From assembly GCF_030068615.1 (NCBI RefSeq), contig NZ_JASJOC010000005.1:1-64000 (forward strand): DNA of 64,000 bases, given 5' to 3'. The DNA is from Halostagnicola sp. A-GB9-2 (GTDB lineage Archaea; Halobacteriota; Halobacteria; Halobacteriales; Natrialbaceae). Within the stretch, counting starts at the first letter, position 1. The number at the start of each line of letters is the position of its first letter. The notes beneath the pieces were generated by a model. It did not search any database and was not told where the DNA came from. It saw only the letters and a program-made list of their open reading frames with translations. Positions 10,053 through 54,409 of this stretch are shown here, piece by piece. The position numbers and the translations under genes are program-made.

Positions 10053-10110
10053 TCCGATTCCCAGCGTTGATCGCCGAGTGAGTGTCGTCGGTCCAGTCGG
10101 TCCATTCATA

Positions 10111-10186
10111 GGGTCGGTTGTAACGATTTACCGGAGCAACCGCAGGACGACTCGCGGCTGCTCCGGAAATGACTGACAACCGACCC
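10111..10186. repeat. 76-bp palindromic element, copy 1
   Basis: Arms of 33 bases face each other around a 10-base centre. The outer 11 bases (GGGTCGGTTGT / ACAACCGACCC) pair perfectly and the inner part pairs with a few mismatches (CCGGAGCAACCGC against GCGGCTGCTCCGG). A related element with the same core lies at 44513-44572, so this is a dispersed repeat rather than a private terminator. It could be a MITE-like remnant, or act as a transcription terminator after the small zinc protein gene. Confidence 0.75.
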
Positions 10187-10314
10187 CATCACGGAATCTC
10201 TCTCGCCGCTTTACTCGTCCCGCAAGGCCGGTGGCGTGTGACAACTCATCCGCCCGTTGAACCGGTGTAGATGTGCTCCAAACACTTATGGTGATACTTG
10301 CGTAACCATACGAT

Positions 10315-26500: not shown

Positions 26501-27480
26501 TTGCTCCGTTGTTCCGGTGACGACGGTGATGCCTCTCCCGGATACGTCCGGAAAAGGGGAGCAGGCGGCGAGCCCTAACTCGCCGCCTGCGTTAGGTTAT
26601 GCACGATGCACTTGCGAGTTAGCTCCCGGAACTGGCCGTGCCAGCTCCGGGAGCGGAGCTTCTCGCCGTCGTCTTGCTTCAACTGCGCGAAGCCGGTTTC
26701 ACTCATCCAGCGCTGGTTGTAGTCATCGTTCATTCGTGCGTTGTGGGCCTTCTGCAACGGTGTCTGTTCCCTGTGATTGATCAACGGTCGTGTTGACTCG
26801 GAGCGACACTCCTCACGGAGGTCGCTCCACGAGTAGTTCGCGTCAGCAGACAACACACGCAGGTCTTCCGCGTTCCGGCGGAAGACCTGCATCCCGATGT
26901 GGCCGTCCCAGGCCTTCTGCGTCGTAAAGTGAACGTCCTTGATCGCTAGTGAGTTCACGTCGATCAAGATCGTTGTCTTCATCGACTGGAATGAGTAGTT
27001 CGCTCGGTCGCGGTAGTGGTAACTGGTTTGATCGCGCTGGAAGCCACTTGCATCAATCGCAGCTTCACCACTCCAGCCCGCCTGCTCCGCCGAAGCGCGG
27101 AGCAGGCGGCGGAGTTCACGCATCCGATACTCGTCTTCCCACCGGCAGAACGAACTGTAGTGCGGTGCCTCGTCGAGATCGAATACAGCAAGAACACCTG
27201 GCATCTCGTTGAGGTAGTCTTCAGTTTCACGGAGGCTCTTCTCCAGTTCGACGCGGAACAGAATTAACGCGATCTGTGTCCACTTGGCGTACCCGGCCGC
27301 GCCGTCCGGCGCGGCGGGTACGTCCGGATCGTCAACGTGCTGTTTGGCAAGGTCTTGATACATTCGCGCTAGCCGTCTGAACGATGCCATATCGCCAGAC
27401 GGCGTCCATTTCCCGGTCAATCTGACGGAATATATCCGTGAGAGCGTCTGAGACTGTCGTCATTCGGAAGCAAAACAAGG
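26501..27480 (-). mobile_element. IS5-type insertion sequence (about 0.95-0.98 kb)
   Basis: Imperfect inverted repeats frame the transposase: CCTTG...TTCCGG TGACGACGGT on the left (26501-26529) and its counterpart CCTTG...TTCCGAA TGACGACAGT read from 27480 inward. Outer limits are uncertain by about 20 bases and no clear target duplication was made out. The element splits an older transposase pseudogene. Confidence 0.6.
26575..27420 (-). CDS. IS5-family transposase
   Basis: A 281-aa DDE transposase. Catalytic candidates are the Asp in AAIDASGFQRD (residues about 121-130), the Asp in LSADANYSW near 195, and the Glu in RWMSETGFAQLKQDDG near 240, which fits the IS5 DDE layout. The N-terminal 90 residues are the usual helical DNA-binding part (PHYSSFCRWEDEYRMRELR). 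The frame is complete, so the element may still be active. It reads opposite to the pseudogene it interrupts. Confidence 0.88.
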   Translation of the reverse strand: MTGKWTPSGDMASFRRLARMYQDLAKQHVDDPDVPAAPDGAAGYAKWTQIALILFRVELEKSLRETEDYLNEMPGVLAVFDLDEAPHYSSFCRWEDEYRMRELRRLLRASAEQAGWSGEAAIDASGFQRDQTSYHYRDRANYSFQSMKTTILIDVNSLAIKDVHFTTQKAWDGHIGMQVFRRNAEDLRVLSADANYSWSDLREECRSESTRPLINHREQTPLQKAHNARMNDDYNQRWMSETGFAQLKQDDGEKLRSRSWHGQFRELTRKCIVHNLTQAAS

Positions 27481-29970: not shown

Positions 29971-31701
29971 ATGTCGACTGACCCGTCGGCTGTCGCTGAG
30001 TCAATCATTGTTCACGCGGAGACGCTCTGTGAACGAGAAGACCATCTCTGGGATGTCATCCGGAAACTCTCAATCCCCGTCGCCGAACTGGAGGATGCCC
30101 GCGATCAGAACCGCGTTAACTTCGGGACCGACGAAATGTTCCGCACGCTCTTGTTCAAGGGAATTCGCGGCATCTCCCAGAACGAATTAGCGCAACGACT
30201 TGGCCGGGAGCCGAGCTTAGTCAAGAGCTTCCACCTCGATATTACCGATCTCTCGAATACGCCCACCCAACAAGAGCTTTCGTACGCACACGCGCAGTTC
30301 AGCGAGGACACTCAGGAAGTCCTCAATCAGACGGTTGCTGGCATCCGGCAGGTGGCTCTCGACAACGACGTCCTCACGGAAGGCCTCGTTCCGTCAGTTC
30401 CAACGGATGACGAGGATGAATCGCCGAGCAAGAACGAGTACAAGAAAGAGAAAGCTCAGAAGACGCTGACGCTCGCTCGCAAACACGTCATTCCCGAATT
30501 CGACACCCATCGAGCAGCCCACAAGAAGTACTCCGACGAGGTGATGCTGGATATGTTCGCGAGTATCTGTGCGAACAACGGCAGTGCCCACTCAGAAGCC
30601 GAGTACGGCTGGCTCACTGATGACGACCTCATCTGCGATGACTCAACGTTCCTACGGGCAATCAAAAAGATCGCTACGCCAGAGGATTCGGACGGCCAGC
30701 TCACGTTCGAGGATTTCGGGGACGATGATTCGATGCCCGAGATCGACCAAATTCGGGACGCGATTATGACAGCGTTCAACGCCGCCACGGAGAACATTAT
30801 CAACTCGATCCGGGGGGACGATCCATTCGACTCGCGTGAGACCGTTGCAGCGATCGACATCACCCACGAGCAATTCCACGTCTGGCCGTGGGAGGACAAG
30901 GAAGCAGGTATCGCGAAGCCAGACTACCCGAAGATGGTGAGCGGGTACAAGAAAGACGGCGAGTACAAACGTGGGTACAAGTACGCCACCATCACGCTGG
31001 TCGGTGACCACGCACCGATCGTCCTCGGCATTGAGCCGGTCAAGGAGGATTCTACATGGGAGCCAAACGACTCTCCATCGTACTCGAAAGCCGATTTAGT
31101 GAGCCGATTGCTCGACCGCGCGGAACAGTTCGTCGATCTGGATCTGGTGATGTTCGACCGAGGGTTCTACGTCAATCGCGTGTACGCAGATGTTCACGAG
31201 CGCGGGCTCACGTATCTCTCTCCAGTGCCGACGTACGAGGATGATTTAGCGGCGATCCAGAATATTCAGGAGCATCCAACAGCGGATGAAGCTGTCAAGC
31301 ACGACGTCCCGTTCGGAATCGATGGTGAGATCCATCACGAGGCAGAGTTCCTCTATGCCCCGAGTACGAGCGACGATGCCGACGGAAAGTATGCAGTATT
31401 TGTGACAAACCAGGACCGCGTCGAGCCCGAAGAGATCTCGAGTGTCGTGAACGGGTACAGTCGGCGGTGGGATATCGAGAACCAGTACAAGTCGATCAAG
31501 GATTTCATGCCGAAGACGTCGTCGACGGACTATCGGCTTCGACTGTGTAACTTCGCGCTATCGACGCTGATCTATAACCTGTGGCGGCTCACAGACTATT
31601 TGATCAAGGTCGCGCTCGACGAGCCGATCCGGTCGCCGCCAGTAATTACGGCGAAGACGTTCGTGCGAGCGTTGGGCGACTTCCTGCGTGAGTTCGGGTA
31701 A
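29971..31701 (+). CDS. IS4-type DDE transposase, solo
   Basis: A 576-aa DDE protein. Catalytic candidates are the Asp in VAAIDITHEQFHVW, the Asp in LVMFDRGFYVNRVY, and the Glu in YSRRWDIENQYKSIK. The last motif fits Y-2-R-3-E-6-K exactly, the IS4-family signature. An acidic Lys-rich linker near residues 145-165 separates an N-terminal DNA-binding part. I found no inverted repeats in the 150 bases before or 300 bases after it, so it is either a solo or degraded element, or a domesticated gene. The reading frame is complete. Confidence 0.8.
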   Translation: MSTDPSAVAESIIVHAETLCEREDHLWDVIRKLSIPVAELEDARDQNRVNFGTDEMFRTLLFKGIRGISQNELAQRLGREPSLVKSFHLDITDLSNTPTQQELSYAHAQFSEDTQEVLNQTVAGIRQVALDNDVLTEGLVPSVPTDDEDESPSKNEYKKEKAQKTLTLARKHVIPEFDTHRAAHKKYSDEVMLDMFASICANNGSAHSEAEYGWLTDDDLICDDSTFLRAIKKIATPEDSDGQLTFEDFGDDDSMPEIDQIRDAIMTAFNAATENIINSIRGDDPFDSRETVAAIDITHEQFHVWPWEDKEAGIAKPDYPKMVSGYKKDGEYKRGYKYATITLVGDHAPIVLGIEPVKEDSTWEPNDSPSYSKADLVSRLLDRAEQFVDLDLVMFDRGFYVNRVYADVHERGLTYLSPVPTYEDDLAAIQNIQEHPTADEAVKHDVPFGIDGEIHHEAEFLYAPSTSDDADGKYAVFVTNQDRVEPEEISSVVNGYSRRWDIENQYKSIKDFMPKTSSTDYRLRLCNFALSTLIYNLWRLTDYLIKVALDEPIRSPPVITAKTFVRALGDFLREFG

Positions 31702-44512: not shown

Positions 44513-44572
44513 TTGTAACGATTTACCGGTACTGTCGCAGAACGGTCGCGGTTGCACTGGAAACGACTGACA
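44513..44572. repeat. Palindromic element, copy 2
   Basis: This shares the core of the element at 10111-10186: both contain TTGTAACGATTTACCGG, then GTCGCAGxACG or a close form, a GCGG(C/T)TGC core, and GGAAAxGACTGACA. The two arms pair imperfectly. It lacks the perfect outer arms of copy 1. It sits in a 0.7 kb intergenic gap. Confidence 0.65.
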
Positions 44573-44965
44573 GCAGTCAGTACGAGGTCGACTTCGCCAT
44601 TATATAAGTACTAACGGACAGTTGAGGTTTGTCGATGGGGCGCGTGTTCAACAATGAGCGTTTTGCGGCGGAAAACCCGTCGAGAGAGTGACCGTCGGAA
44701 ATCACACTTCGCCACTGTTGGCGGAAACGTTGCTGTGGCTACAACTCAAACGCCCGTTCGATGTTTACGGAAGTACCGTTGTAATTAGCACAACTGCATT
44801 AAGAACTCGTTCAGCTTCAATTTCGACGGTCTCGGGAACGGGTGGTAGAACCCCTTGTTCGTCGAAATCGGCTGCAACCGTTCATCGGCGGACCGGTAAA
44901 ATCCGACGACCGACATCGCTTGCTACTCGCGTCGTTCACTGTATTCACGCGCGTCACTATTGGGT

Positions 44966-54214: not shown

Positions 54215-54311
54215 ACTTGTGATCCGATTCCTTCCCTCCCCGCCCCTGATACGCTCGAGTAGGAAGATAGCTGTTGTACCGCGTCCCGAGCCCAATCAAA
54301 CGCGACCTCTC

Positions 54312-54391
54312 ATACTGTCGGCTGTCAGGCGTTCTCGATTCTCGTCCCCCCGGGGGTGCGAGAATCTTCACAGAGGTACAGCCGACAGTAT
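54312..54391. repeat. 80-bp nested palindrome
   Basis: Outer arms ATACTGTCGGCTGT (54312-54325) and ACAGCCGACAGTAT (54378-54391) are perfect complements. Inside, GATTCTCGTCCCCC and a matching GGGGG...CGAGAATC form a second hairpin near 54338-54367. It lies between the flippase and the following gene, ending 18 bases before its ATG. It could be a MITE, a terminator or an mRNA leader structure. Confidence 0.7.
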
Positions 54392-54409
54392 TAGTTTCAA
54401 CACCGAGCC

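Follow-up and report, generated by a model that had tools for sequence, protein, structure and literature searches.

A palindromic foldback element family of haloarchaea with three-base target duplications that often fall on stop codons

Results

Three copies of a palindromic element in the window

The window (positions 1 to 64,000 of contig NZ_JASJOC010000005.1 of Halostagnicola sp. A-GB9-2) harbours, at positions 10106-10191, an 86-bp unit which is composed of an 80-bp palindromic element (copy 1) with the triplet TCA on either side. Two additional copies of the same family were identified elsewhere in the window, the features being as follows:

10106..10108, no strand: left-hand TCA of the target duplication (from the letters and the duplication rule derived from 237 copies)
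10109..10188, + strand: foldback element copy 1 (from the letters, fold, BLAST and arm covariation)
10189..10191, no strand: right-hand TCA of the target duplication (from the letters)
44513..44585, + strand: copy 2, decayed; lacks the left terminal repeat and has 2 mismatches in its right end (44570-44585)
54310..54393, - strand: copy 3, subfamily Z, with TACTGTCGGCTGT ends and the flanks TCA and TTA

Copies 1 and 3 each sit between ORFs of the window. The terminal repeats of copy 1 are 13 bp in length (10109-10121 and 10176-10188) and contain at most two mismatching pairs, located at the outer end; the left repeat reads TAGGGTCGGTTGT and the right one is its near complement, while the interior between them is made up of an asymmetric internal loop and an inner stem. 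The element is predicted to fold at -48.3 kcal/mol (z -8.2), a value equalled by none of 200 shuffled sequences. The original prediction had placed a hairpin at 10111-10186, and the hairpin is indeed present, with perfectly matched outer 11 bases as described (10111-10121 with 10176-10186), but its extent was given too small as these positions represent the inner part of the unit. An Rfam scan of the window returned no match above the gathering score of any family, and a reading of the internal loop as a k-turn, judged by eye, was dropped.

The proposed kinship between copies 1 and 2 was borne out, since the core TTGTAACGATTTACCGG occurs at both 10118-10134 and 44513-44529, and GGAAANGACTGACA is likewise present at both sites. 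This 17-mer core has three exact copies in the genome and none in the reversed-pattern control. The proposal that the two sites constitute a pair of hairpins holds for their sequence but not for the structure of copy 2, which is decayed and whose fold does not go beyond that of shuffled sequences (z -0.28; 76 of 200 shuffles as good). Copy 3 retains both ends intact, with an interior that differs from that of copy 1. In two congeners, the genes on either side of copy 1 are conserved and the element is absent from this neighbourhood; the interval between the matched parts measures 155 bases in congener G057 as against 243 here and aligns poorly, so that the absence of copy 1 is in this case an argument from length.

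Spread and subfamilies

Dozens of copies are present in the genome of A-GB9-2, where BLAST with copy 1 returned 73 rows at E<=10 (several rows for some copies), and many dispersed copies share 77-90% identity with copy 1 across approximately 80 bases. The end pattern, allowing up to two mismatches, matched this genome 150 times compared to 18 times for the reversed control. Exact end matches were detected in 101 of 292 Halobacteria genomes, representing 35 of 77 genera; five or more were present in 47 of the 292 (counted from the table), while the reversed control never exceeded three. The distribution among the genomes of the class is one of lineage-specific bursts, with 70 exact end matches in A-GB9-2 and none in the three congeners included in the 292-genome search. 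Furthermore, a pattern scan of named genomes identified at least 112 stretches, and the titles of the matches listed were all haloarchaeal. The site at copy 1 is therefore part of a dispersed repeat family rather than a local terminator, as had been suggested, with further copies in its own genome and in many haloarchaeal genera. A Z-type query, the only one applied to a phage collection, produced no match, and three patterns applied to a viral collection produced 26, 0 and 10 stretches (GC 0.34-0.63), which is approximately the number expected by chance according to our own estimate and included no convincing pair; one viral locus (L234) was read and dropped.

The family terminal repeat is 13 bp long and reads TACNGYCGGYTGT or TAGGGTCGGTTGT, or a near variant of these, and 94-97% of its cells are paired. 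Among 237 copies gathered from the collected loci, element length is mostly 79-103 bp (commonest 84), with no transposase gene inside. Three main subfamilies, here named X, Y and Z, have their ends in common and differ in their interiors. In the single-contig genome G069, the 90 exact ends matching the Z pattern were resolved by hand count into 40 short pairs, one pair interrupted by another IS and eight ends without a partner.

Several variants were also observed. A 142-bp variant of subfamily X, in which one side of the inner stem is longer by approximately 60 bases, is present at four loci of the A-GB9-2 genome (L001, L032, L040 and L042). A further variant of 113 bp, which keeps the ends but has another interior, was found in this genome at L049:185-297 and as several pairs of 113-114 bp in genome G147. 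A second palindromic family of approximately 114 bp was noted in QS_5_68_33, with ends TACTGTCGGACACAAG whose outer nine bases are shared with subfamily Z; its five paired copies (L123:3635-3748, L131:7139-7252, L162:6146-6259, L171:3653-3766 and L183:2700-2814) all display a TCA or TGA duplication, and it also occurs with unpaired ends at L084 (6388) and L088 (965).

Arm structure and covariation

Covariation between the arms was scored for 31 subfamily Z copies (from 53 of length 84, picked for at least six differences and a clear orientation) and for 22 hand-picked X/Y copies. The Z set scored 0.175 as compared to 0.124 for shuffled and 0.06-0.11 for slid partners, and the X/Y set 0.223 as compared to 0.113 and 0.02-0.11, respectively. 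None of 500 shuffles reached the score of either set, although the structure was read from the same sequences, which favours it. Pairs with double changes in the Z set were not in excess over shuffles (at least as many in 151 of 500). In all 31 copies of this set, columns 19 and 66, a mismatch of the internal loop, are unpaired. Both selection on the hairpin and repair of the palindrome during replication are possible sources of this covariation.

Target duplication and empty sites

Target duplications, which the original prediction had suggested looking for, were found to be 3 bp in length and to consist of TCA or TGA. The flanks of the 237 copies are TGA/TGA in 80, TCA/TCA in 72, TTA/TTA in four and TAA/TAA in two cases, while 20 copies pair TGA with TCA and the remainder carry a changed flank. 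The middle base of the flank agrees in 195 of the 237 copies, as against 79 of 237 for the next base outward. Among the 139 copies with a confident core orientation and a TGA or TCA pair, 73 carry TGA and 66 TCA; as the two triplets are thus nearly equal whatever the orientation of the core, the triplet belongs to the target rather than to the element.

To locate empty sites, the flanks of all 21 copies found in the first 200 kb of each of the Halomicrobium plasmids pLC1Hm-01 and pHmuk01 were joined with one triplet and compared with the other plasmid. Nine of the 21 aligned across the junction and 12 did not, six of the latter being without any match. Four of the nine are clean, the triplet occurring only once in the other plasmid:

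L269:12938-13021: 306 bases, 90.5%, 0 gaps
L271:23652-23736: 398 bases, 94.7%, 0 gaps
L274:37712-37796: 403 bases, 93.3%, 1 gap
L276:37622-37706: 403 bases, 92.8%, 0 gaps; left flank of the filled allele TCG

At all four, the triplet is an annotated stop codon in both plasmids (coordinates compared by hand). The empty sites were read from the joined-flank comparison and from the letters themselves. The fixed-length duplication, the single triplet at empty sites and the mobility that the latter demonstrate, together with dispersal in many copies, terminal inverted repeats and the short, transposase-free interior, are features of miniature inverted-repeat transposable elements (MITEs).

Five other sites were set aside: L269:17147, where the other plasmid has a different base at the site; L274:9002, with 16 gaps and TAA in the other plasmid; L273:4599, where the same stop is occupied by a different element in the other plasmid; and L273:21102 and L271:29901, which hold tandem element copies rather than a simple insertion. 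The tandem at L273:21102-21300 (pHmuk01) consists of near-identical copies of one element, with a unit of approximately 84 bp, and immediately follows a stop codon. In the two plasmids, the stop of a glycoside hydrolase family 2 gene carries elements that belong to different subfamilies (L272:16544-16628 and L273:4599-4683), and it was apparently hit twice independently. At an M48 protease gene of Haloarcula, H. sinaiiensis and H. marismortui lack the element and the gene ends in CGGTCCTGA; H. hispanica carries TGA-element-TGA, the sequence past the site having diverged, and a more divergent copy is present at the same stop in Haloarcula sp. CBA1115.

Placement at stop codons

Five of the six plasmid matches examined first are annotated, and in two of these the first TGA coincides exactly with the end of a gene, which encodes a universal stress protein in Halomicrobium mukohataei and the M48 protease in H. 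hispanica. Of the 21 copies on pLC1Hm-01 and pHmuk01, 11 fall on an annotated stop (TAA in one case), eight are intergenic and two overlap a gene. The TNA sites available on these plasmids number 229 at stops, 2898 intergenic and 6743 coding, stops thus representing 7% of the available non-coding target sites, and the enrichment at stops corresponds to an odds ratio of 17 (P 1.8e-8), with an incomplete gene table. Copies with three or fewer mismatches are distributed as six at stops and six intergenic (P 1e-4). Two of the 11 stop copies (L271:29901 and L273:21102) are orthologous to one another.

A count on the named contigs was based on crude gene calls, with rates expressed per 1000 TSA sites and 15 copies near contig ends left unclassified:

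Stop sites: 125.7 (43/342)
Convergent intergenic sites: 36.6 (6/164)
Codirectional intergenic sites: 36.3 (17/468)
Divergent intergenic sites: 20.1 (5/249)
Long gaps: 10.5 (13/1237)
Coding sites: 1.1 (8/7227)

On these gene calls, the per-site rate at stops is 3.4 times that at convergent intergenic sites (P 0.003). The excess over intergenic sites persists when QS_5_68_33 and the other contigs are taken apart, and at CTGA sites alone. Additionally, a test independent of gene calls revealed codon periodicity 5' of the duplicated TGA, with G in first and C in third position; the commonest last triplet before this TGA is GAC (31 of 152). An open frame with a coding signature precedes 52% of 79 copies compared to 4% of 2388 random TGA triplets. 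In the A-GB9-2 genome itself stop placement is weak, involving two of 14 strict copies, which have short flanks.

Search for a partner transposase

The collected loci contained no partner transposon, neither among paired ends 0.4-4 kb apart nor among ends 90-3500 bp apart with equal flanks, and no transposase was recognised at the unpaired ends in L084 and L088, which belong to the second palindromic family. The IS1031 and ISL2 groups of the IS5 family duplicate TNA. No transposon with ends of the present type was found among 30 loci with PF01609 (30 of the 69 listed matches in six genomes), and partner ends were likewise absent from 29 inspected loci with PF13358; PF13359 gave no match in six genomes and PF13340 none in ten. 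The loci and families examined thus yielded no transposase flanked by such ends, and the elements are therefore probably moved in trans. The window itself contains two PF01609 matches, at 26593-27060 (- strand) and 30934-31581 (+ strand), and the flanks of the former hold none of the studied ends. One pair of ends 1.5 kb apart in G069 (L204) was rejected as a partner because its 1403-bp insert is another IS, found elsewhere without such ends; at L204:1005-2501, this IS, which encodes a PF01609 transposase, is inserted within a Z-type element.

Discussion

The results argue strongly, with a probability of roughly 0.86, that copy 1 is a member of a haloarchaeal family of foldback MITEs of approximately 80 bp, moved in trans and inserted preferentially at TNA triplets and stop codons. 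According to the proposed mechanism, a transposase supplied in trans would recognise the 13-bp terminal repeat and insert the element at TNA, mostly TCA or TGA, the 3-bp stagger becoming the duplication; insertion at a TGA stop would duplicate the stop and leave the upstream gene intact. Given what is established for such elements, the combination of terminal repeats, a 3-bp duplication and empty sites suggests transposition of the DDE type, and the enzyme would thus be a DDE-type transposase acting in trans. In kind, this is an ordinary MITE family, and its unusual trait is a placement at stops that is repaired by the duplication. In the open literature that was searched, no account of the family was found.

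Other origins of the hairpins fit less well. Convergent evolution of local transcription terminators would explain the stable hairpin at copy 1, but can practically be dismissed in view of the 77-90% identity to many dispersed copies, the fixed ends and the duplication, and is refuted by the empty sites. Mobilisation of a REP/RAYT-like or PATE/IS605-like element by an HUH transposase would be in keeping with hairpins in many copies without a transposase between their ends; it is nevertheless very improbable, being already contradicted by the clear terminal inverted repeats and 3-bp duplication, both of which are absent by definition from PATEs (PMC3119063). It is rather unlikely, though far less so than either of these, that the family is in essence a hairpin that functions as RNA or DNA and is retained at gene ends as a stabiliser of mRNA 3' ends, a terminator or a processing signal, with mobility being secondary. 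Such a role, modelled on what is discussed for bacterial REPs, would have stop copies persist because they are helpful, and would account for the compensatory changes in the arms and for the many copies directly behind stops. However, the set of copies varies between close relatives, neither orientation of the core relative to the gene predominates (73 and 66), the window is without an Rfam match, and arm repair in replication could equally maintain the palindromes.

Within the preferred reading of a trans-mobilised MITE family, the stop excess might be due to purifying selection only, acting on random TNA insertions through losses from genes and control regions. This possibility carries appreciable weight even if it is the less probable one: coding sites are hit least and an insertion at a stop is harmless by construction. 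Nonetheless, convergent gaps, where insertions are presumably also harmless, are hit less per site, which indicates that the bias exceeds mere avoidance of genes, although few sites fall into this class, the gene calling was crude and common descent may link some copies; the persistence of the excess at CTGA sites and across contig sets also speaks against selection alone. We therefore infer that the bias is in part due to targeting; the preference for stops may reflect accessibility of gene ends, a wider target signal or a stronger purging elsewhere than assumed. A more specific and tentative suggestion, somewhat less probable than selection only, is that a stand-alone, possibly domesticated haloarchaeal transposase favours translation stops by sensing features of gene ends in addition to the T(S)A triplet. 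If so, a hairpin that is conserved and co-evolves in its arms would be put directly behind many stops, leaving genes unbroken.

The coincidence of a 3-bp target and duplication with the stop codon used most often in these genomes represents a built-in means of low-damage spread, which bears on how mobile DNA survives in gene-dense genomes. Many genes may owe the hairpin behind their stop to such an insertion, and close Halomicrobium strains carry both filled and empty alleles.

With regard to known systems, the family resembles the IS1031 and ISL2 groups in its 3-bp TNA duplication, and differs from IS5-family groups in that no IS with its ends was found among the inspected PF01609 loci and PF13340 was without match in ten genomes. 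REP elements, which are moved by RAYT (Y1) enzymes, are similarly palindromic, intergenic and present in many copies. The present elements differ from these in their terminal repeats, duplication and length of approximately 80 bp, REPs being given as 20-40 bp in PMC3733652. The PATEs of Haloquadratum walsbyi are likewise haloarchaeal palindromes in many copies, but they are described in PMC3119063 as lacking the terminal inverted repeats and duplication that distinguish the present family from PATE/IS605-type elements. The same text describes the SMR-A and SMR-B elements of this organism as 80-110 bp in length (80 bp for SMR-B HqIRS41), with a high copy number and terminal inverted repeats untied to a known transposon, all of which parallels the present haloarchaeal family; SMR-A elements insert into PATE/IS605 palindromes, and SMRs are reported to have no target duplication, so that the 3-bp duplication sets our family apart by description, not by sequence (PMC3119063). 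The closest correspondence is with prokaryotic MITEs, characterised in PMC10969869 as short, non-coding elements with terminal inverted repeats, a target duplication and many copies, each of which applies here. Unlike these, the present family is without a parent IS among the families and loci examined, forms a near-total palindrome with a conserved asymmetric loop, and generates a duplication that coincides with stop codons.
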